Shown here piece after piece: positions 22,285 to 49,386 of a stretch of 64,000 bases of DNA (positions within the stretch are counted from its first letter, which is position 1; every line of letters begins with the position of its first letter). Both the position numbers and the translations under genes were made by a program. The notes under the pieces were generated by a model. That model searched no databases. It saw only the letters and a list, made by a program, of their open reading frames with translations, and had not been told where the DNA came from. The stretch spans positions 168,664 through 232,663 of the forward strand of contig JAFULG010000002.1 in assembly GCA_017473435.1 (NCBI GenBank), given 5' to 3'. This DNA is from Clostridia bacterium. Its GTDB lineage: Bacteria > Bacillota > Clostridia > Oscillospirales > Acutalibacteraceae.

Positions 22285-22313
22285 TTGACAAATTATAAAT
22301 TATTTGTTATTAT
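22285..22313 (+). promoter_or_regulatory. Strong promoter for 32-aa peptide
   Basis: TTGACA (22285-22290), 17-bp spacer, TATTAT (22308-22313), 46 bases before the ATG. Confidence 0.8.
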
Positions 22314-22359
22314 TTAACTACGGAAAAATCCGAAAATGTATTTAATAGGAGGTACTACC

Positions 22360-22458
22360 ATGGACGCATTACAGACAGTATTCAACACAATCAGAGACGT
22401 TATTGCTATTATCAAGAAGTTCTTTGAGGACATTTTCCCCAAAAAGGATGCTGAATAA
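22360..22458 (+). CDS. 32-aa amphipathic helical peptide, PSM/delta-lysin-like in outline
   Basis: The start is ATG 22360 with a strong AGGAGGT upstream. The 32 residues (MDALQTVFNTIRDVIAIIKK then FFEDIFPKKDAE) place Leu4, Val7/Phe8, Ile11, Val14/Ile15, Ile18, Phe22 and Ile25 on one helix face and Asp, Arg, Lys and Glu on the other; net charge is about -1. There is no signal peptide or cysteine. Together with 49187-49285 (also exactly 32 aa) it shares D-[VI]-[IV] ... K-F-F-[ED]. It has its own promoter and terminator. Staphylococcal phenol-soluble modulins and SpoVM-like membrane-sensing peptides have this build; which, if either, applies is unknown. Confidence 0.8.
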   Translation: MDALQTVFNTIRDVIAIIKKFFEDIFPKKDAE

Positions 22459-22471
22459 TTAAAAGAAAGAA

Positions 22472-22503
22472 GAGGAGACCGTAAGGTCTCCTCGATTTTT
22501 TTT
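22472..22503. terminator. Terminator between peptide gene and pth
   Basis: GAGGAGACC-gtaa-GGTCTCCTC then GATTTTTTTT. Confidence 0.9.
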
Positions 22504-26650: not shown

Positions 26651-27352
26651 TTGAACGAAACAGTAAAAGTTGAATATCTTTTTAAATCCTACGGCAAAAA
26701 GACTGTTCTTGACGGAATTTCCTTTGAACTTAAGGCAGGCGAAATTGTAGGACTTCTCGGACCTAACGGTTCGGGTAAGACTACTCTTATTAAAATTCTT
26801 ACCGGGCTTATCAAGGACCATAAGGGCAGCGTGCTTATCGACGGAGAAGCTCCCGGTGTACACACAAAGGAAATTGTTGCCTTCCTTCCGGATAAATCCT
26901 ATCTTCCCGACTGGATGAAGCCGACGGATGCTATAGACTATTTTGCTGATTTCTACAAGGATTTTGATAAGGCGAAGGCAACTGAAATGATGCAGCGCTT
27001 CGGTGTGGATATGAATCAGCGCCTTAAGACTATGTCTAAGGGACAGCAGGAAAAGGTTAACCTTATTCTTGTAATCTGCCGCAAGGCAAAGGTTTATATA
27101 CTCGATGAGCCTCTCGGCGGACTTGATCCCGCTTCAAGAAGTGCAATCCTGGATTTTATTCTTGAAAATTATTCAAAGGATGCGACAATGCTTCTTTCAA
27201 CACATCTTGTAAACGATGTTGAAAGAGTTTTCAACCGTGTACTTATGATTAACAACGGCAGTCTTGTTGTAAATATGCCTGTTGAAGAGATAAGAGAAAC
27301 GGGCAAGAGCGTCGAGGACGTATTCAAGGAGGTGTTTGCTTATGTTTGGTAA
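26651..27352 (+). CDS. ABC transporter ATP-binding protein
   Basis: The protein has 233 aa. The start is TTG 26651, preceded by GAAGGTGTG. Walker A GPNGSGKTT (about 36-44), signature MSKGQQEK (about 130-137) and Walker B VYILDEPLGGLD (about 148-159) are intact. The closest recalled group is the YtrB/YhcH-type exporters of Firmicutes, where the ATPase serves a six-helix permease. The next gene, overlapping by 11 bases, is that permease. The substrate is unknown. Confidence 0.93.
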   Translation: MNETVKVEYLFKSYGKKTVLDGISFELKAGEIVGLLGPNGSGKTTLIKILTGLIKDHKGSVLIDGEAPGVHTKEIVAFLPDKSYLPDWMKPTDAIDYFADFYKDFDKAKATEMMQRFGVDMNQRLKTMSKGQQEKVNLILVICRKAKVYILDEPLGGLDPASRSAILDFILENYSKDATMLLSTHLVNDVERVFNRVLMINNGSLVVNMPVEEIRETGKSVEDVFKEVFAYVW

Positions 27353-28163
27353 GCTTTTAAAGCACGAGATAAGACACAGTGCAAGATACAACCTCGTTAT
27401 TTATCTTGTTGCAGTTGCTGTTACCCTAGTGATGGCACTGTCTCTTATAACGGAGTCATCTGCTCTCGGCGCCGCAAGCTGCTTTGCGATTTATATAACG
27501 GGCTTTGCAACGGTTATTGTGACCCTTGTTTCCGTAATCAAGAATTTTTATGATACACTTTATTCGCGCCAGGGATATCTGACACTTACGCTTCCCGTAA
27601 AGTCGGGTCAGCTTCTTGCTTCAAAGGTGCTGGTTTCATTTTTATGGATAATTGTGGGCTTTCTTATTATGGCGCTTACCTGGGTTTCGATTTTCTTTTA
27701 CGTTAAAGAGCAGACACAGGCAAGCTTTGACGTGTTGAAAATTCTTTTTACTGATTCAGGACTTTTAGAATTGCTTCCTTCCGGCTTTGTTGTGGCAGAG
27801 GTGCTTTTGGTGTTCGGAGCCATTGTACTTGCAAAAATACTCACATATGTAGGCTATATCTATTTTGCGGTTACTGTTGCAAACACAAGAGCATTTCAGG
27901 CTCACCCCAAATTTTTCGGCGGAGTAACTTTTTTTGCCGTGATGATTGTTATTTCAAAAATCAATAACTTTCTTACGGCTAAGGCACCTGTTACGTTTTT
28001 TGTAACAACTGAAAAAGCCTTTTTCGGCTTTGAGCCTATGGGTGCAGTTGACGGTGCAATTATTTCCTATGGTGTAGGCGGCACACTTTTTACAGGTCTT
28101 GTGGCTCTTGCGCTTCTCGTTTGTACCGCATATATCATTGAGCACAAGGTTAACATAAAGTAA
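27342..28163 (+). CDS. ABC transporter permease (ABC-2-like)
   Basis: The protein has 273 aa. ATG 27342 has AGGAGG 10-15 bases before it and overlaps the ATPase stop by 11 bases, a sign of translational coupling. Six hydrophobic segments are visible; the soluble loop DTLYSRQGYLTLTLPVKSGQ after helix 2 is common to this permease group. It should form a transporter with the ATPase just upstream. No regulator of the YtrA type is present beside it. Confidence 0.85.
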   Translation: MFGKLLKHEIRHSARYNLVIYLVAVAVTLVMALSLITESSALGAASCFAIYITGFATVIVTLVSVIKNFYDTLYSRQGYLTLTLPVKSGQLLASKVLVSFLWIIVGFLIMALTWVSIFFYVKEQTQASFDVLKILFTDSGLLELLPSGFVVAEVLLVFGAIVLAKILTYVGYIYFAVTVANTRAFQAHPKFFGGVTFFAVMIVISKINNFLTAKAPVTFFVTTEKAFFGFEPMGAVDGAIISYGVGGTLFTGLVALALLVCTAYIIEHKVNIK

Positions 28164-42141: not shown

Positions 42142-42954
42142 TTATTTGAATGCCACGTAAGCGTAAACAATACCGTTCTCGTTAAGCCTTGTCTCATTTT
42201 CAAGGGTCTGCTTATCAAGCACATAAAATCCGGTGCTTGTTACATGTACATTTTTTGAATTCTTTCCGCCAAAGGAAAAGCCACAGTAGTTTCTTAAAAA
42301 GAGTATGTCGCTGTCAAAGACAACCGGCGGATATCCTTGTCGGAAAATAAAGAGAACCTTGGGTCTAAAGCCTAAATTGATAGTCTTTTCAATATCGTAG
42401 CCGTGACCCGTATAAGTGCCGGTTACAAACGGCTCGTTATACTTTTCGTGTTCGGCAGCAGTTACATGTATGTTTTTGTCGTTAACGTGAGTTTTACAGA
42501 AAAAATTCTGAGGAACGGTGACAGACTCGTTTTGCGAATCGGGAGCAGGACAGCTCTCCCTTTTATAGTAAATTTTGCAGATAATACGGAAGGATTTTAC
42601 TTCGTCATCGTATTCCGTTTCGCCTATAGTATAACCCGAAATTTCGGTGATGTACTTTTCGTTAAGGAAGGTCAGCACCTCTTCGAGCAGTATGTGAGTA
42701 TCAGAGGCAAGGCAGATAAGAGGAGAGAAGCAGGTCATACGTATTGTAACTTCGTTTTTCTGACAGAATTCCTTGTTATCACTTTCAAAATAGCTTATTG
42801 TGTTTTTTTCGGGAACAAGAGAGAGATAAATTTTCTTAAGGGGAATAGGAAGCTCTTTGGTATCAAAGCCTCTGATAGCTTCGCAGTTTTCAGGCTTAAG
42901 AGTGTTGTTTATGTCCTCAATCATTTCGTCGATTATCTGTGAGGTGAAAAGCAT
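42142..42954 (-). CDS. Phage tail-terminator-like domain fused to a tail-fibre-like C-terminal domain
   Basis: The protein has 270 aa. Residues 1-130 (IIDEMIEDINNTLKP, LSLVPEKNTISYFES, IICKIYYKRES) have the alpha/beta outline of phage tail-terminator or head-tail joining proteins. Residues about 175-270 (TGTYTGHGYDIEKTINLGFR, VTSTGFYVL, NENGIVYAYVAFK) match the small beta domain seen at the end of phage receptor-binding and fibre proteins. Such a fusion is unusual. AAGGAGG precedes ATG 42954. It is the last gene of the head operon; no tail tube or tape-measure gene follows. Confidence 0.6.
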   Translation of the reverse strand: MLFTSQIIDEMIEDINNTLKPENCEAIRGFDTKELPIPLKKIYLSLVPEKNTISYFESDNKEFCQKNEVTIRMTCFSPLICLASDTHILLEEVLTFLNEKYITEISGYTIGETEYDDEVKSFRIICKIYYKRESCPAPDSQNESVTVPQNFFCKTHVNDKNIHVTAAEHEKYNEPFVTGTYTGHGYDIEKTINLGFRPKVLFIFRQGYPPVVFDSDILFLRNYCGFSFGGKNSKNVHVTSTGFYVLDKQTLENETRLNENGIVYAYVAFK

Positions 42955-42956
42955 TG

Positions 42957-43295
42957 TTATTCCTCCTTGCTGACGATTGACCAGGTGTAATAGGGGCTTT
43001 TACCGAGATAAACCTTTTCAGAGTGATCTATGCTTAGGTGCTTGTCACCGAAAAATAGCGCAACTGACGTACCGTTAATTGCTGAAAGGTCTACATCGGC
43101 AGGGGATATGAGAAGATATTTTTTAAGGCTGTCATAGCCGAGCTCCGTTGCAACACCGCGAAGATAAATTTTATTTTTATATCTCAGAGGCTGGAGAAAG
43201 GCATTGAAGCTGGTTGTAACTTCTCCGTCCTTTTTGATTATAAGGGTTACACCGGACTTTTTAAAAAGAGCCTTCGGAGCTTTATTAATAACCAC
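42957..43295 (-). CDS. Phage head-closure-like small protein
   Basis: About 112 aa. GTG 43295, with GGGGGG 11 bases upstream, overlaps the previous gene by 11 bases; a TTG at 43319 is another option. The sequence is rich in beta-strands with a conserved-looking YLLISPADVDLSAINGT segment and ends YYTWSIVSKEE. Its position between a head-tail connector and a tail-terminator-like gene fits a head-closure (stopper) protein. The family is not recognised with confidence. Confidence 0.5.
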   Translation of the reverse strand: MVINKAPKALFKKSGVTLIIKKDGEVTTSFNAFLQPLRYKNKIYLRGVATELGYDSLKKYLLISPADVDLSAINGTSVALFFGDKHLSIDHSEKVYLGKSPYYTWSIVSKEE

Positions 43296-43647
43296 GGCAG
43301 TAGAACCCCCCGTCAACAAGAATTGAAGCCGCTTCTGCTATGGCGGTATCACGTAAAAGCGTTTCTCTCTCAAGAGCCTTTGAGGGGTTGTTGTTAATTG
43401 TAATATCTCCCACACGGTAGGTTTCATATTTTTCAGGCTCACAGAGAGTGCGGACAAAAAAGTGATAATGTGCTACCGCGGCAGCGGTACGCGCTATAAG
43501 CGGCTCATCATCTGCGGTGTCGGACCGCAGACGGGCGTTAACCCATCTGAGTCCGATATCACAGCAGGAAAGAAGCTCCTCATCGGGATAGTCTACGGTG
43601 TCATAATTACTGCGAAGGACGGTTAAAACATCGTTTGCTGTAATCAT
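43285..43647 (-). CDS. Phage head-tail connector protein (gp6-like)
   Basis: The protein has 120 aa; ATG 43647 follows AAGGGGG. The all-helical pattern MITANDVLTVLRSNYD, ELLSCCDIGLRWVNARL, and AAAVAHYHFFVRTL resembles HK97 gp6 / SPP1 gp15-type connectors that form a ring under the portal. It follows the capsid gene directly and overlaps the next gene. Confidence 0.65.
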   Translation of the reverse strand: MITANDVLTVLRSNYDTVDYPDEELLSCCDIGLRWVNARLRSDTADDEPLIARTAAAVAHYHFFVRTLCEPEKYETYRVGDITINNNPSKALERETLLRDTAIAEAASILVDGGFYCRGY

Positions 43648-43660
43648 CGGGGAGCCCCCT

Positions 43661-44665
43661 TTATGCACAGGTCATTTTAACGCAGGCATTGTCATAAATT
43701 TTTGAGAAGCCGGCAATGGTTGTGATGGCTGCTCTTTCAAGCTGACGGTCAATAAGCTTGTCATATTCTGTTGTTACGGGCATTGCTTCAACCTTTTCAA
43801 GAGCGCAGGTCTTGTCAAAGCCGACTATTGTGAGAACGGGAACGTTTTCACTTCTGAAAAGCTCTGCTCCGAGAGGAGTAATCATTTTACCTGTTGCGTG
43901 GAAGTCAAGACCCTTATAGCTGTCTCTGAATTCGGGCAGAGAAAGGAGCTTAACCATCATATCGGGCGAAGCAATGAGCGTGTTAAGGTTGAAGGGTGCA
44001 AGCGCTCCCCAGATATTGATAAGGTCAGCGTAGGTAAATTCTGAGCCGGAATAGGGTACTTCTATAGCGCTGTTTCCGTTTCCGTCGCCGTCAATGAGTA
44101 CAGAAATCGCCTGGGCAAGCTGAGCACGGGCAATACCTGCACCAATCTGCTTAAGGGCAACAGTGAAAAGATCAAGGCGCTGGAAGCGGATAGCCTCGTA
44201 GGAGGCGCTGAGAAGTCTGCCGCATTTCTGAAGACAGACAAGCTTTTCCTTTGTAACGATTTTTGTTTCGGGGATGAAAGTACCTTCAGCGATAAGGGAA
44301 GGTTCATAGTTTTTTTTCGTGTCCTCGGTTGTTACTGAACGGTAATCGAGACCTTCGATTTTGGTTGTTGTCGCAACGATTGAATCAAGAATACTTGAAT
44401 TTTCAATGCCCTGTGCAACTGAACGGGAAATATATTCGGGGAAAAGAGTAACAGAGTCAGATGTTCTGAAAAACTTTTCAATGGGGTCGCTGTTTCTGCC
44501 GCTTACCTTGATATCAAAACGCTTTAGCTGACGTTCAAAGGCATCAAGACCTTCAAGCTCTGTACCGATATAGTTTTCGCTGGGGTCAATGCTTTCGAGG
44601 GCGGCTGAAAAGCTTTTGCCGGTTGTGTAAAGACCCTTGTCGAGTCTGATGTTATCATAATTCAT
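43661..44665 (-). CDS. Phage major capsid protein (HK97-fold)
   Basis: The protein has 334 aa. SDSVTLFPEYISRSVAQGIE (around residue 69) and the paired elements IEGLDYRSVT, IPETKIVTKEKLVCLQKCGR and LLSASYEAIRFQRLDLF are the strand/spine-helix features of HK97-type capsids. Near the end, the phrase DFHATGKMITPLGAELFRSE fits the A-domain loop. It has no long N-terminal scaffold (delta) domain; that role probably falls to the protease-scaffold gene upstream. GGAGG precedes ATG 44665. The frame is intact. Confidence 0.8.
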   Translation of the reverse strand: MNYDNIRLDKGLYTTGKSFSAALESIDPSENYIGTELEGLDAFERQLKRFDIKVSGRNSDPIEKFFRTSDSVTLFPEYISRSVAQGIENSSILDSIVATTTKIEGLDYRSVTTEDTKKNYEPSLIAEGTFIPETKIVTKEKLVCLQKCGRLLSASYEAIRFQRLDLFTVALKQIGAGIARAQLAQAISVLIDGDGNGNSAIEVPYSGSEFTYADLINIWGALAPFNLNTLIASPDMMVKLLSLPEFRDSYKGLDFHATGKMITPLGAELFRSENVPVLTIVGFDKTCALEKVEAMPVTTEYDKLIDRQLERAAITTIAGFSKIYDNACVKMTCA

Positions 44666-44683
44666 ATTTTACATCCTCCTTGA

Positions 44684-45028
44684 TTAAAGTATAAGTTCTA
44701 AGGTTTTTTCAATAACGTCAACGCCTACAACAGTGTAGGGTGTGCCGTTTTCTTCGTCAACCTCAAGATTACCCATAGCGCCTACTGAAAGCTTACAGAT
44801 ACCGACAGTAGGAAGAGTATCCTTGAAGGAAGCTACTGCATAGCCCTTCATTACAACGGAAGCTACGCCGTCACGGTAGGTTGAAACAATACCTGTAAAG
44901 GGTGTGCCTCTGTCGGGATAGGTGATTTCTCCGGTGCTCTTAAGAGCAACTGCTCTGCCGGGAAGTGTTACTGACATTGCTTTGAAAGTGGCCTCGCTTG
45001 TTTCGAAGCCGTTTAAAAGTGCGTTCAT
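44684..45028 (-). CDS. Phage head decoration-like protein
   Basis: The protein has 114 aa. Small, beta-rich and Gly/Thr/Val-rich (GTPFTGIVSTYRDGVASVVM, LPTVGICKLSVGAMGNLEV), it sits between the protease-scaffold gene and the capsid gene. This is the standard place and build of a capsid decoration protein (lambda gpD-like or DUF2190-like). AAGGAGG precedes ATG 45028. Confidence 0.65.
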   Translation of the reverse strand: MNALLNGFETSEATFKAMSVTLPGRAVALKSTGEITYPDRGTPFTGIVSTYRDGVASVVMKGYAVASFKDTLPTVGICKLSVGAMGNLEVDEENGTPYTVVGVDVIEKTLELIL

Positions 45029-45040
45029 AAATTATCCTCC

Positions 45041-45988
45041 TTAAATTTTAAATGCATTATTGATGGTTGTGCTTTTCTTTGGTGAAACTGCTTTGAGCTG
45101 CAGGCATACAGGGATTGTTTCGCTGGCCTGGCTGCGAAGGCTCTCCATAAGAGCCTTTAGCTGTAATGCTGACATATCTTCACAGCCTTTGCAAAAAGCA
45201 TCTACATTTACCTTGTGCATAGCTATTAAGGCAAATTTTCTTATTTCGCTTAAGAGATGTTCTCTGTAAAGCCTTCCGTCTTCAGCTTCAAGCTCAAGCT
45301 TTTTTATATAGCTTTTGGAATACACCTGTGTTTTTTCTGCGCCGGAATTGCCGTTAATATCATTTGCTGTTGTTTTTTTTGTCTTTGCCTTCTCTTTTGA
45401 AAGGGCTTTTGTAACTCCTGCGTTTTTTTGTGCGGGCACAGCAACAAATGACCATTCGTAAGCATCAGCGGCACCGGACAAAATACCGTGGCACAGTTTT
45501 TTGCCGTAGTATTTACCCTTGATGTGGTTGCACTCATGAGATTTCATATTTTTGCCGCAGATTGAGCATGTCATATTTGACATAGAGCAGCCTACGCTTA
45601 CCTCTTTTTTGATGCCGCCTTCAATCTGAGCGATCATATCCTTGTTTTCATCTGTGACAAGCATATATGCAGTAGCTTTAAGTGCAACATAGCCTTCTCC
45701 CGCAGAGGTCTTTTTGCTTTTATCTTCCTGAATACAGGTTTTGAAAATTCTTGCCTTCTGGTTAAGAGAGCTCATATTATGGTCGGAAATACCGGTTCTG
45801 CCGACAAAAAGTCCGGCAAGCTCCTTGAGAGCGTCGATACTGAAACGCTCAAAATCACGGTCTACCTCGTTGTCACAGAGGGTAAGATTGAAACAGTAAA
45901 TATCCTCTGCAGAAAGAGGATTTCGTGCATAAGTGTTGATAAGCTCAAGGTCCTCGGCTGTAGGTGTGTTATTAATTGCCGTTGTCAT
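45041..45988 (-). CDS. Putative prohead protease with zinc-finger insert and scaffold-like tail
   Basis: The protein has 315 aa; ATG 45988 has AGGAGGTG upstream and overlaps the portal gene. NEVDRDFERFSIDALKELAG then GISDH (His70) and KKEVSVGCS (Ser131 or Ser135) resemble the His/Ser active site of phage head-maturation proteases. An insert with Cys141, Cys144, His151, Cys153 and Cys166 could bind zinc. From about residue 230 a coiled-coil-like stretch (YIKKLELEAEDGRLYREHLL) and helical tail may act as scaffold. The catalytic assignment is inferred from position and motif only. Confidence 0.6.
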   Translation of the reverse strand: MTTAINNTPTAEDLELINTYARNPLSAEDIYCFNLTLCDNEVDRDFERFSIDALKELAGLFVGRTGISDHNMSSLNQKARIFKTCIQEDKSKKTSAGEGYVALKATAYMLVTDENKDMIAQIEGGIKKEVSVGCSMSNMTCSICGKNMKSHECNHIKGKYYGKKLCHGILSGAADAYEWSFVAVPAQKNAGVTKALSKEKAKTKKTTANDINGNSGAEKTQVYSKSYIKKLELEAEDGRLYREHLLSEIRKFALIAMHKVNVDAFCKGCEDMSALQLKALMESLRSQASETIPVCLQLKAVSPKKSTTINNAFKI

Positions 45989-47144
45989 CGGTTGTTTCAC
46001 CTCCTGTTTCGGTAATAATTTTTTGTGTCTGTGCATCATAGTAGCGGCTTCTTGAAAGCTCGGTGATGTCCTGGAGTGTTATTGCTTCCCACTCAATGCT
46101 GAAGTCGCAGACTAAGCCGTGAAGTCTTAAGAAAAGGCGGCAGATCTGTGAGATGACAGGATTAAGCTGTCGGCGGTAGAATTCAATTTCGCTTGTGAGA
46201 ATGTCTGCCTGCTGAAAGCTCATTCTTTCGGTGGTAGACCAGCTCAAGCCGAGAAGGAAGGGCGGTATGCCAAGCTTTGCTATAATCTGCTCAAGCATTT
46301 CTCTTACAGGTACATCACTGTCGAGAATCTGATTATCCGCACCGATGGCTTTGATGTTTACATCACCTACGGCAACAAAGTCCTTTGCAGCGCCGCTGCC
46401 TGAGGACATTGCCTTGCTCCATTCGTTGGCGACGAGCATCGCCCTTTCCTTGGCGTAAGCTTTGTCTATAACATCGTTCTGAGGCTTGTAGGTTACAGCA
46501 AAACGTACATTTCCTACTCTTTCCCAGTTTGTGCCGATGGTGTTGTAAATCTTAAGAAGAATGTCGCTTACAAAGGGAAGACCTTTAAGAATTGAAGTTC
46601 CGTAAATACTTCCCGGTTCAGGGTTAAGCACAGAGAGAAGTATAAGAGAAGGGTATTTTACGGGAACAAAGCTTCCGTTTCCCTTGTCGGCGCTTACAAC
46701 GATATCAAGAGCGCTGCTTCCCTCGCTTAAGGATATTGACTTAAGGTCAGCGTTATAAAGGTGGGTTATGGTGCTTCCGTCGGTTACCATCTCACCAACT
46801 GACGTACCGTAGGTGAGAAGCTGTTCGAGAAAAGTTGAAACGAAGGCATCAATGCCTTGTCTTGTTCCGCTTACGCTTACATTTCTGAGAAAGTCCTCGA
46901 GAAGCTCCTGAACCGCCTTGTTATCGCAGGTGACACTGAAGGTGCCGATGAGTCTTATGAGCTTGTATACTGCGGCATCTATGATGGGAATTGCTTCACG
47001 CAGGGATTTGTAAAGAGTCATATCGGCGGTTGATAAGGGGTTATAATTCTGCAGTGTAAGGAAGGGGTGCTTTGCGCCCGAGGTCTGAGGCACTGCAACG
47101 ACGGCACTTTCCGGCGGTTCTTTTTTTCTTTTGCCTATTGCCAA
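45972..47144 (-). CDS. Phage portal protein
   Basis: The protein has 390 aa. The start is TTG 47144, eight bases after AAGGAG; a GTG three codons earlier touches that site. YNPLSTADMTLYKSLREAIP, FLEQLLTYGTSVGEMV, and the region LEQIIAKLGIPPFLLGLSWS followed by FQQADILTSEIEFYRRQLNP are typical portal elements (wing, stem helices and clip). The portal forms the ring through which DNA enters the capsid. The frame is intact. Confidence 0.85.
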   Translation of the reverse strand: MAIGKRKKEPPESAVVAVPQTSGAKHPFLTLQNYNPLSTADMTLYKSLREAIPIIDAAVYKLIRLIGTFSVTCDNKAVQELLEDFLRNVSVSGTRQGIDAFVSTFLEQLLTYGTSVGEMVTDGSTITHLYNADLKSISLSEGSSALDIVVSADKGNGSFVPVKYPSLILLSVLNPEPGSIYGTSILKGLPFVSDILLKIYNTIGTNWERVGNVRFAVTYKPQNDVIDKAYAKERAMLVANEWSKAMSSGSGAAKDFVAVGDVNIKAIGADNQILDSDVPVREMLEQIIAKLGIPPFLLGLSWSTTERMSFQQADILTSEIEFYRRQLNPVISQICRLFLRLHGLVCDFSIEWEAITLQDITELSRSRYYDAQTQKIITETGGETTDDNGN

Positions 47145-47205
47145 GTTGTTCACTCCTTTCGTTCAGGGCGAAATCCCTGATTTTTGTTTTCAATAAAAAG
47201 ACGTA

Positions 47206-48465
47206 TCATCTGTCGGAAGCAAAAACGAAAAATCCGTCATTTGCATCATTAAGGACATTAAGAACAAAGTAGCGGATGTCATCCATTGCGTGGTCGTGTT
47301 CTTTTTTAGGTGTGTCCTTTTTTGAAGCCTCATCCCAGCGATAAAGAGAAAACTCCTTTATCGTGTTTTTGCAGGAGGGCGAAATCCTGATTTTTCCGTC
47401 ACGGAAGGCGCCCTGAACCTTGCGGATGCCGTCAGTAACATCATTTTTTGCCGGAATGACGGTGAATTTGCCATGACGGCAGATGCATTCGATGAAGGAG
47501 GCGGCTGACGGGTCAACTATTACGGCGGTGATGCTTTTTCCGTCTGTGAGTGCCGACAGCTCGCTGTAATACTCCTCATCGGTTTTGTGGACGCCCTGCT
47601 CCCTTGAATTGAAGTAGTACTCGTCTATTCTGTACCACACTCCGCCGTGAAGCCCCCATAAGCCCATTGAGGTGGGGTTCACGGTTCCGTAATCGCAGGA
47701 AACGTAGTATTTTTCAAATTCAGTTACGGGTGGCGAAAGAGTGTACTTTCCTTTTGCGGCATCGGGATAAACAAGTCCGTCAACCGCAACCCATTTACCA
47801 AGCACAAATCTTTCATAAAAGGCTCCGCTGTAAAGGCTTTCATAGCGCCTTATCATTTTCGCGGAAAGAGATGGGTTGTCGGACATAAGGAAGTGGATAT
47901 AGAGACAGTTTTTTTCTTCGCTCTTTTTTATCCATTCCTTGTAAAACCAATGCATAGGGTTTTCCGGGTTGCAGTTGAACCAGAATTTTGAGCCTGAAAC
48001 AGAGCAACGCGCCAGAGCCTGCTCAACAAAGGAGCGGGGCATGAGGGCGACCTCATCAAGGAGAATACCGCCAAGAGTCATACCCTGAATAAGGGATGCA
48101 GAGCTTTCATCTCTGCCGCCGAAAAGGTAAAAGCGGTTTGTTTTTTCATTCATCGTGACCTCTATCATATTCTGACTGAACCTTTCCTTGCATTCAAAAC
48201 CAAGCTCACGAAGACGCGGTATAAGATCAGTTATAATGTTACGTCGAAGAGAGGTTATGGTTTTTCCGCAAATTGCAAATGAGGTGTCGTCAAAGCGATA
48301 AAAGGCCCAAGCAACAAAGGATAATGACATACAGGTTGTTTTGCCGCTTCTTACTGCTCCGTCGCAGATAAGTCCGTCATAGCTGCAGAACGGAGAGCTT
48401 TCGTGCCACCAGGAGAAAACGGCAAGCTGTTTTTTTGAGAATGTAGTGAAGCCCCGGTTACTCAA
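47206..48465 (-). CDS. Phage terminase large subunit (PBSX type)
   Basis: The protein has 419 aa. The start is TTG 48465 with AAGGAGGAC just upstream; it overlaps the small-subunit stop. Walker A is GAVRSGKT (about 36-43), Walker B GILLDEVAL (about 135), and the coupling motif lies in FWFNCNPENPMHW. The nuclease domain starts with SCDYGTVNPTS (about 255), followed by AVIVDPSAASF and HDHAMDDIRYFV with its acidic residues. It cuts and pumps phage DNA. All key acidic residues appear present, so the motor may be functional. Confidence 0.93.
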   Translation of the reverse strand: MSNRGFTTFSKKQLAVFSWWHESSPFCSYDGLICDGAVRSGKTTCMSLSFVAWAFYRFDDTSFAICGKTITSLRRNIITDLIPRLRELGFECKERFSQNMIEVTMNEKTNRFYLFGGRDESSASLIQGMTLGGILLDEVALMPRSFVEQALARCSVSGSKFWFNCNPENPMHWFYKEWIKKSEEKNCLYIHFLMSDNPSLSAKMIRRYESLYSGAFYERFVLGKWVAVDGLVYPDAAKGKYTLSPPVTEFEKYYVSCDYGTVNPTSMGLWGLHGGVWYRIDEYYFNSREQGVHKTDEEYYSELSALTDGKSITAVIVDPSAASFIECICRHGKFTVIPAKNDVTDGIRKVQGAFRDGKIRISPSCKNTIKEFSLYRWDEASKKDTPKKEHDHAMDDIRYFVLNVLNDANDGFFVFASDR

Positions 48466-48976
48466 TGCTGTCCTCCTTAAGTGCCGCTGCACAGGATGAA
48501 ATAGCGTTGTAAAGAGAGTTTCCCGTCACATAATCCTTTTCGTCACAAAGTTGCTGTAATTTTTCAAGAGCCTTAAGGCGGTCAAAGAATTTAATTTCTA
48601 TGTCGCCACCCTTTTTTCTCTTGATTTCGGAAATATTAAAAAAATCCATTTCCTCAAGCTTTTCCTTTTCGGGCTCTTCGGAATATAAAAGACTGATTGC
48701 ATCGCTGATACAGCCGAAGGCTAGTCTTGTGTATCCCTGAGCGATATCTTTTTTGTCGGCCCTTCGCTGCTTATCTAGCTGTTCAATATAGGCTTTTATC
48801 TCCTTTCTTTTCAGAAGTTTTAAAGCGGCTTTTTCAGGAAATCTGTATCCGGATTTTGCCGCGGCCTCTCTGCCGTTGCAGTTGACACTGCAGTAGGTGC
48901 AGAAGAGCTTTTCTTTGCTTGAGAGTTCTTTGCTTATTTTCGATTCTCCTTTCTGAGAGGTAAAAAGTCCCCTCAC
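48458..48976 (-). CDS. Phage terminase small subunit
   Basis: Up to 172 aa. LSSKEKLFCTYCSVNCNGRE and AAAKSGYRFPEKAALKLLKR (residues about 18-57) form the HTH DNA-binding domain of Terminase_2-like small subunits; the C-terminal part is the oligomerising helix region. The start is odd: the longest frame opens with GTG 48976 without a ribosome site, while the perfect AAAGGAG at about 48945-48951 points to an ATA codon at 48937. This suggests either rare AUA initiation or a decayed ATG. It leads the head operon. Confidence 0.8.
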   Translation of the reverse strand: MRGLFTSQKGESKISKELSSKEKLFCTYCSVNCNGREAAAKSGYRFPEKAALKLLKRKEIKAYIEQLDKQRRADKKDIAQGYTRLAFGCISDAISLLYSEEPEKEKLEEMDFFNISEIKRKKGGDIEIKFFDRLKALEKLQQLCDEKDYVTGNSLYNAISSCAAALKEDSIE

Positions 48977-49104: not shown

Positions 49105-49133
49105 TTGACATTGTTTAAAGGGTAGTATATAAT
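49105..49133 (+). promoter_or_regulatory. Perfect consensus promoter for second 32-aa peptide
   Basis: TTGACA (49105-49110), 17-bp spacer, TATAAT (49128-49133). The AT-rich stretch 48977-49104 contains a TTTTTGAG/CTCAAAAA hairpin and no other gene. Confidence 0.9.
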
Positions 49134-49186
49134 TATTGTAACTTGAGGGAGTATCCCGAAAGAAATTTTAACAGGAGGTAGCTAAA

Positions 49187-49285
49187 ATGAACGATATTCT
49201 TGCATGGGTAAAGAACAACTGGGCTGACATCGTTAAGTTCTTCGATAAGTTCTACGGTATCCTTAAGGGCATTCTTGCTGACTAA
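49187..49285 (+). CDS. 32-aa amphipathic helical peptide, second copy
   Basis: ATG 49187 follows AGGAGG by eight bases. The product is MNDILAWVKNNWADIVKFFD then KFYGILKGILAD, exactly 32 aa like the peptide at 22360-22458. Hydrophobic residues Ile4/Leu5, Val8, Trp12, Ile15/Val16, Phe19, Phe22/Tyr23, Leu26 and Ile29/Leu30 recur every 3-4 positions; Lys and Asp balance to zero net charge, as in delta-lysin-type modulins. Codons are strongly biased to AAG, AAC, TTC and ATC, a sign of high expression. It is transcribed away from the phage head operon and has its own terminator. Confidence 0.85.
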   Translation: MNDILAWVKNNWADIVKFFDKFYGILKGILAD

Positions 49286-49342: not shown

Positions 49343-49371
49343 AAGCCACCCGATTCGGGTGGCTTCTTATT
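49343..49371. terminator. Bidirectional terminator between peptide gene and mfd
   Basis: AAGCCACCCGA-t-TCGGGTGGCTT with T-rich flanks on both strands. An AT-only hairpin (ATTTTAAAATTTGAAATTTT) lies just before it. Confidence 0.88.
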
Positions 49372-49386
49372 TTTATACCGATTATT

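Follow-up and report, generated by a model that had tools for sequence, protein, structure and literature searches.

Leaderless, mostly anionic amphipathic micropeptides form an expanded family in one gut Oscillospiraceae genus, with members beside a GTA-like head gene cluster

Introduction

PSM-beta-type peptides provide the main point of comparison for the genes reported here. Parts of one study (PMC5585272) describe a cluster encoding PSM-beta1-6 in S. capitis TE8, and report that the synthetic S. capitis PSM-betas, neutral or negative, were all active against Micrococcus luteus, the neutral ones more so than the negative ones; two negatively charged S. aureus PSM-betas are reported there as not significantly active. 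The same source states that S. aureus exports its PSM-betas via the Pmt transporter, without a signal peptide. Leaderless bacteriocins, a second point of comparison, are commonly thought to be cationic, according to PMC6072434. A third lies in gene transfer: PMC12946183 shows particles carrying random host DNA for the Faecalibacterium GTA, and places a holin and an endolysin of Faecalibacterium elsewhere.

Here, we describe two 32-codon genes, copy 1 and copy 2, in a 64-kb stretch of Clostridia DNA (the window, meaning the whole stretch analysed). Both are members of an expanded micropeptide family of one gut Oscillospiraceae genus, whose products are leaderless, mostly anionic, predicted alpha-helices.

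Results

Two stand-alone micropeptide genes

A first-pass annotation of the window described two 32-codon genes sharing a layout of TTGACA-17-TATWAT promoter, AGGAGG and terminator, and the coordinates and elements are borne out for both copies:

22285-22313, plus strand: copy 1 promoter, TTGACA (22285-22290), 17-nt spacer and TATTAT (22308-22313), 11 of 12 consensus bases
22314-22359, plus strand: copy 1 leader, 46 nt, with a 5' hairpin (CGGA/TCCG, 22321-22332) and AGGAGG (22347-22352)
22360-22458, plus strand: copy 1 gene, ATG at 22360 and stop at 22458, 32 aa with a predicted amphipathic helix and a charged tail
22472-22503, plus strand: copy 1 intrinsic terminator, 9-bp GC-rich stem and T-run, terminator score 12
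49105-49133, plus strand: copy 2 promoter, TTGACA (49105-49110), 17 nt and TATAAT (49128-49133), perfect consensus
49134-49186, plus strand: copy 2 leader, 53 nt, with a 5' hairpin (GGGA/TCCC, 49147-49157) and AGGAGG (49173-49178)
49187-49285, plus strand: copy 2 gene, 32 codons, predicted amphipathic helices
about 49343-49376, strand unassigned: copy 2 terminator hairpin, between copy 2 and the convergent mfd, terminator score 15.8

Copy 1 is flanked by a Na/Pi cotransporter-PhoU gene and by pth. Copy 2 sits between mfd, whose 3' end adjoins it and which points towards it, and a nine-gene head and packaging cluster. The downstream gene is convergent at both copies, and each copy is, judged by sequence, its own transcription unit. 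The two genes had been called unlinked, which holds in the window, where they lie 27 kb apart, but not in G015, where genes of both types stand about 6.4 kb apart.

A scan for an SD, an ORF of 22-60 codons, promoter and terminator scores and amphipathicity, with limits set after the two genes were known, returns copy 1 and copy 2 from the window and nothing else. The strict scan gives no match in 60 dinucleotide shuffles of the window, and the loose scan gives a mean of 0.05 matches and a maximum of 2 on such shuffles.

AlphaFold predicts one helix in copy 1 (residues 2-25, mean pLDDT 86.6) and two in copy 2 (residues 2-10 and 12-31, mean pLDDT 94.4); a lone helix is an easy target for the program, and the prediction is silent on function. 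The apolar face of copy 1 consists almost throughout of I, V, L, F and A, plus one T, and that of copy 2 of I, V, L, F, W and Y, plus one N. The amphipathic helix first assigned to both peptides stands out clearly for copy 1, whose maximum 18-residue moment of 0.42 is reached by 0.5% of shuffles of its own residues, whereas the amphipathicity of copy 2 is only moderate (0.32, reached by 6.6%). The net charge is -1 for the copy 1 peptide and 0 for that of copy 2, and by eye neither has a signal peptide. The common core earlier read into the pair, D-[VI]-[IV]...K-F-F-[ED], lines up only if a four-residue length difference is allowed, and the two peptides align at 16 bits.

Protein-level conservation and sequence signs of high output

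Both copies are real protein-coding genes under purifying selection. Copy 1 shares 67% identity with its counterpart in G001 at a dN/dS of 0.21, and has a dN/dS of 0.27 against G018; copy 2 shares 66% identity with its counterpart in G003 at a dN/dS of 0.23, and has a dN/dS of 0.27 against G012. The pooled pN/pS is 0.31 over 49 pairs with at least 60% identity; the pairs have sequences in common and are therefore non-independent. The check for conservation at the protein level in relatives that had been proposed for these genes thus comes out in favour of the coding reading. A leader peptide, an attenuator or a noncoding RNA with a chance ORF would also present a short ORF followed by a terminator, but the pN/pS, the codon bias described next and the convergent downstream genes at both copies lead us to reject this reading, which we regard as hardly credible.

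Codon choice was compared with 24 ribosomal-cluster ORFs of the same genome, picked by length and strand, a few of which may be non-ribosomal. On this scale the codon adaptation of copy 1 is 0.745 against 0.530 for the synonymous null (reached in 9 of 2000 draws), and that of copy 2 is 0.894 against 0.566 (0 of 2000 draws). The best value among the 43 window ORFs of at least 150 aa is 0.733, below both copies. Five further peptides of the same genome reach 0.87, 0.80, 0.79, 0.71 and 0.66, and a further own-genome candidate (L224) was dropped at a codon index of 0.39. Ribosomal-like codon choice is therefore strong but non-uniform across the peptides of this genome.

The leaders tend to fold at their start. 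Over the first 34 nt, the mean MFE is -6.3 against -3.3 in shuffles (44 leaders of at least 38 nt), and 42 of the 44 fall below their own shuffle mean. The letters of the stem differ from gene to gene, and an alignment of 25 leaders has a weak consensus fold (-1 kcal/mol), with two-sided changes in three of four pairs. Rfam gives no match at gathering score among ten loci; the best, to the Phe leader, scores 39.3 against 55 and lies over the terminator region. We infer that the 5' hairpin is a positional feature that may act as a 5' stabiliser, with no RNA-family status implied.

Taken together, the promoter, 5' hairpin, SD, codon choice and terminator are sequence signs that would point to very high output. 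The proposal that these genes form an abundant family is accordingly backed by protein-level conservation and by signs of abundance that are read from sequence.

A family of singles and tandem arrays

The conserved micropeptide family first suggested for this lineage is upheld by protein-level conservation. The search for relatives of copy 1 and copy 2 covered 33 other genomes of the genus, and 66 distinct peptides of the same build, 25-54 aa long, were gathered from the genus (68 minus two L165 false positives) with promoter, SD and moment filters, so that those features are partly selected for. In this set, pre-selected for amphipathicity, 53 of 66 peptides have a moment reached by at most 5% of their residue shuffles. 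Sixty are net negative, five zero and one positive, with a median charge of -4.

Three groups could be aligned: A1 (copy 1 type, n=11), A2 (copy 2 type, n=14) and A3 (n=13). The hhalign probability is 98% for A2 against A3 and 63% for the A1 and A2 subfamily profiles. Copy 1 and copy 2 belong to separate subfamilies, with A2 and A3 related and kinship between A1 and A2 doubtful. Most family genes carry their own promoter and terminator, and they range from singles to arrays of ten. The longest array, in G016, has ten in a row (L088), or twelve under looser limits, and one in G007 has six (L233) and runs up to the contig end. Eight peptides are known in the genome of the window: copy 1, copy 2, one each on contigs C8 and C16, and two each on C21 and C13.

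Genes of copy 1 type with start, SD and promoter occur in 12 of 34 genus genomes (G000, G001, G002, G003, G006, G009, G010, G012, G014, G015, G018 and G024). A search of 84,980 named species genomes with the copy 2 profile gives 11 loci, ten of them on Clostridia or Oscillospiraceae MAGs, several of which are apparently genomes already in the genus set; seven of these ten loci (six MAGs) have a ruminant gut site in the title. The eleventh, in Beijerinckiaceae, is a doubtful match over 16 residues. In 200 family genomes, strong matches to the copy 2 profile are confined to genus members, with five matches in other genera at E 0.024-0.049, and the copy 1 profile matches 35 of the 200 at E <=0.05, mostly as fragments within longer frames. 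A perfect-promoter scan over 150 family genomes is too unspecific for counting peptides. Small amphipathic ORFs with an SD are present in other genera of the family at L192 361-200 (G140) and at L195 1575-1486 and 1861-1712 (G221), and they suggest that the build may extend beyond the genus.

Several other frames came to light in these genomes. Open frames of 10,402, 10,332 and 24,959 aa occur at G003:C17:76298, G013:C19 (L235) and G140:C10:5159, and L235 is open across all its 11 kb in one frame. A 47-aa Cys-rich ORF with a strong promoter and terminator (L047 1492-1349, G000:C18) resembles a SCIFF ranthipeptide precursor, and a 48-aa Cys/Gly-rich ORF with a terminator (L089 4504-4650, G001) is dissimilar to the amphipathic peptides.

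A GTA-like head and packaging cluster beside copy 2

The first-pass annotation overlooked both the tandem arrays and the link with a phage-head cluster. The cluster comprises TerS, TerL, portal, major head protein, a virion structural protein and four genes without known function:

42142-48976, minus strand: nine-gene head/packaging cluster, vertically conserved, GTA-like
48458-48976, minus strand: TerS-like small terminase subunit, divergent from copy 2
47206-48492, minus strand: TerL-like large terminase subunit, found in 33 of 34 genus genomes
45972-47153, minus strand: portal protein, matched once per genome in 87 of the 150 family genomes
43661-44665, minus strand: major head protein

Since the portal has exactly one match in each of those 87 genomes, spanning 77 of 135 genera, and TerL is so widely held in the genus (with further TerL matches in G007 and G012), the cluster is no passing prophage. 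The window cluster contains single-copy, vertically inherited head and packaging genes, one of the features that define a GTA.

Peptide genes of the copy 2 kind lie on the TerS side in 18 of 30 informative genus genomes and are absent there in 12. The 30 are the 34 minus G022 (no TerL match) and G021, G032 and G033 (contig broken off at TerS or no more than about 0.5 kb from it). The window is one of the 18 positives, most of whose stretches had been retrieved by way of peptide-search matches; the 12 negatives come from fifteen left-over genomes, fetched by TerL, in which the same scan found no peptides. In other genera, TerS-side peptides were recognised in none of 39 stretches (39 of 84 portal-positive genomes sampled; in three, G037, G067 and G175, the contig starts less than 430 bases from TerS). 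Loose limits gave four candidates in these stretches (L165 twice, L132 and L158), none family-like by eye; L132 and L158, each 29 aa, on the TerS side and not hydrophobic, were dropped by eye. We therefore abandoned the idea that the peptides are tied to the head cluster everywhere.

Across the genus genomes, 17 of 20 copy-2-type matches at E <=0.03 lie within 3 kb of TerL, which is an inherited neighbourhood and not 17 independent events, and G005 and G019 have peptides at both cluster ends. These observations would fit accessories of the GTA-like cluster, membrane-active peptides that aid particle exit or DNA entry and replace a holin or membrane-active tape-measure segments. We consider this clearly unlikely: in all 39 other-genus stretches the cluster persists with no recognisable peptides beside it, many peptides (copy 1 is one) lie away from it, the strong constitutive-looking promoters are a misfit for lysis, and in Faecalibacterium, according to PMC12946183, a holin and an endolysin lie elsewhere.

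Likeness to tape-measure proteins

A further point for a GTA accessory comes from viral proteins. In IMG/VR viral contigs, the A2 pattern finds 41 stretches (1 confirmed) and the A3 pattern 57 (4 confirmed). All five confirmed matches, which amount to three independent cases given two near-identical pairs, fall at a W..IV.FF amphipathic helix inside long tape-measure-looking proteins, and at order level A3 matches two further long proteins outside the genus (E 1.6e-4 and 0.0045) that are similar by eye. Against this, L252 is the only one of the long phage proteins confirmed by Pfam, as a phage minor tail protein (PhageMin_Tail); L254 has no match and the others were judged by eye. Matches to named phages have chance E-values (0.5-10); the share annotated as tape measure is 5 of 5 with an A3 member as query, 4 of 7 with an A2 member, 3 of 5 with copy 1 and 0 of 5 with copy 2 itself. 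PHROGs gives weak tape-measure matches (best 0.0014 for A3 and 0.032 for A2) and a best minor-head match of 0.011. Because the unrelated copy 1 shows the same trend, we read the tape-measure likeness as composition, probably in the main a shared amphipathic one. The more specific proposal, that the peptides are free tape-measure-like helices wired as an array to a domesticated phage-head cluster and opening membranes for GTA particle release or uptake, strikes us as very unlikely.

Known peptide classes, neighbours and antisense promoters

Both copies have the size and build of PSMs and delta-lysin, a 20-45 aa amphipathic helix, with the helix predicted. Pfam (copy 1, copy 2 and 13 A3 members) and NCBIfam (copy 1, copy 2, 14 A2 and 11 A1 members) return no PSM, delta-lysin or SpoVM model, no model in either collection is reached at its cut-off in the members scanned, and the best Pfam value for A3, 0.015, is to an unrelated family. 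The comparison with PSMs and delta-lysin made at first annotation therefore is fair for build, but membership lacks support, with no family-model match and no linked exporter found among the neighbours scanned. The parallel drawn with SpoVM fails, with no model match and promoters of the TTGACA-17-TATAAT type; since these are of sigma-A and not sporulation type, a sporulation role is not suggested.

The comparison with leaderless class IId bacteriocins fails on a defining feature, a cationic peptide, since 60 of the 66 peptides are net negative. Of the 14 copy-2-type members, five touch the NCBIfam AMEP412 model (best 19.5 bits against a cut-off of 45) and one touches that of aureocin A53 (E 0.019), scores far below cut-off. 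Phage and plasmid searches give chance-level matches only. An A2 match to PDB Bcl-2 chains (E 0.0019 for the whole sequence, 0.24 for NWGRIVAFFE alone) is taken as chance or convergence, and a PDB search with A1 finds nothing better than E 0.24. The Bcl-2 match involves ten residues of the copy-2-type peptides L071 and L072 (NWGKIVAF/NWGRIVAF), in what is presumably the BH1 region, and is probably fortuitous or convergent. We found no description of these peptides in open-licence PMC papers.

Type I toxins are small, form an amphipathic helix, occur in tandem arrays and are made from single-gene transcripts with 5' structure. The small size, amphipathic helices, arrays and own promoters of the family recall such toxins, which would be repressed by antisense RNAs. 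In a search that sees sigma-70-like promoters only, 14 of 66 loci, including copy 1, carry an antisense promoter-like site (at least 10 of 12 bases), compared with 11.7% of random stretches; the excess is slight and the sites have no consistent position. Optimal codons favour output over repression. With no consistent antisense promoter over the 66 loci, we set this explanation aside as highly improbable.

The 18 neighbour proteins scanned in relatives include no recurrent exporter, immunity protein or regulator. At 26651-28163 of the window, 4 kb from copy 1, an ABC ATPase (PF00005) and a 275-aa ORF without Pfam match form a possible candidate exporter; in G001 and G003, too, this pair lies next to the region of copy 1. 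The peptides might instead never leave the cell and serve as intracellular membrane- or protein-binding regulators or structural helpers, SpoVM-like in principle. Solitary genes, set mostly among housekeeping or unknown ones, would agree with this, as would the missing signal peptide, the lack of an exporter among the neighbours scanned, and a codon choice that fits constant cytosolic abundance. A core regulator would nevertheless be odd in having many subfamilies and TerS-side arrays of one to ten, and in being absent from the TerS side in 12 of 30 informative genus genomes, and the sigma-A type promoters speak against a sporulation-type role. We judge an intracellular function unlikely.

Discussion

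Our tentative preference is for a model in which the two genes encode abundant leaderless, mostly anionic, amphipathic micropeptides that work at the membrane surface as surfactants or modulators, in the manner of PSM-betas. On meeting a membrane or another hydrophobic surface, the peptide would fold as a surface-lying helix, and it may then act by mass action as a surfactant or membrane modulator, by analogy with PSM-beta-type peptides. More speculatively, it might leave the cell through an ABC exporter or by lysis and act on neighbouring cells or surfaces. That the family has split into many subfamilies, with tandem arrays as well, suggests a changing outside partner and not a fixed housekeeping one. 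We give good odds to a membrane-surface-active peptide and lower odds to a secreted, PSM-like one, and secretion and cytolysis are putative, speculative properties. The missing signal peptide is no argument against secretion, because PSM-betas leave by Pmt without one; an acidic charge lowers the chance of an antibacterial role without excluding it, because the negative S. capitis PSM-betas are less active yet active.

If made at the level that their genes suggest, these peptides would rank with the more abundant products of the gut bacteria that carry them, and they match no curated family model searched at its cut-off. Because they lie next to a GTA-like cluster, a connection of micropeptides with horizontal gene transfer can be tested directly.

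Several known systems resemble the locus in part. The window cluster is like FpGTA I of Faecalibacterium (PMC12946183), a compact TerS-TerL-portal-scaffold-capsid operon conserved across related genomes; compared by description, the likeness concerns the content and lineage of copy 2's neighbour and not the peptide, and the FpGTA I section of that paper names no such peptides. Tape-measure proteins have the W..IV.FF helix in common with A2 and A3 peptides, there as part of a 700-1100 aa protein and here in free-standing genes of 25-54 aa. Leaderless class IId bacteriocins such as aureocin A53 and the AMEP412 elicitor family are leaderless and helical, as here, whereas our peptides are mostly net acidic, with no immunity or export genes seen among the neighbours scanned. 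Catalogues of small proteins, GMSC for one, may contain such ORFs without a name. Unlike PSM-betas, the family has no Pmt-like transporter among the neighbours scanned, and most of its genes have their own promoter and terminator; like them, its members are short and amphipathic, lack a signal peptide, have clustered genes and carry neutral or negative charge. If produced in the amounts that their genes imply, they would be for Clostridia what the phenol-soluble modulins are for staphylococci, with a bearing on competition and on surface behaviour in the ruminant gut.
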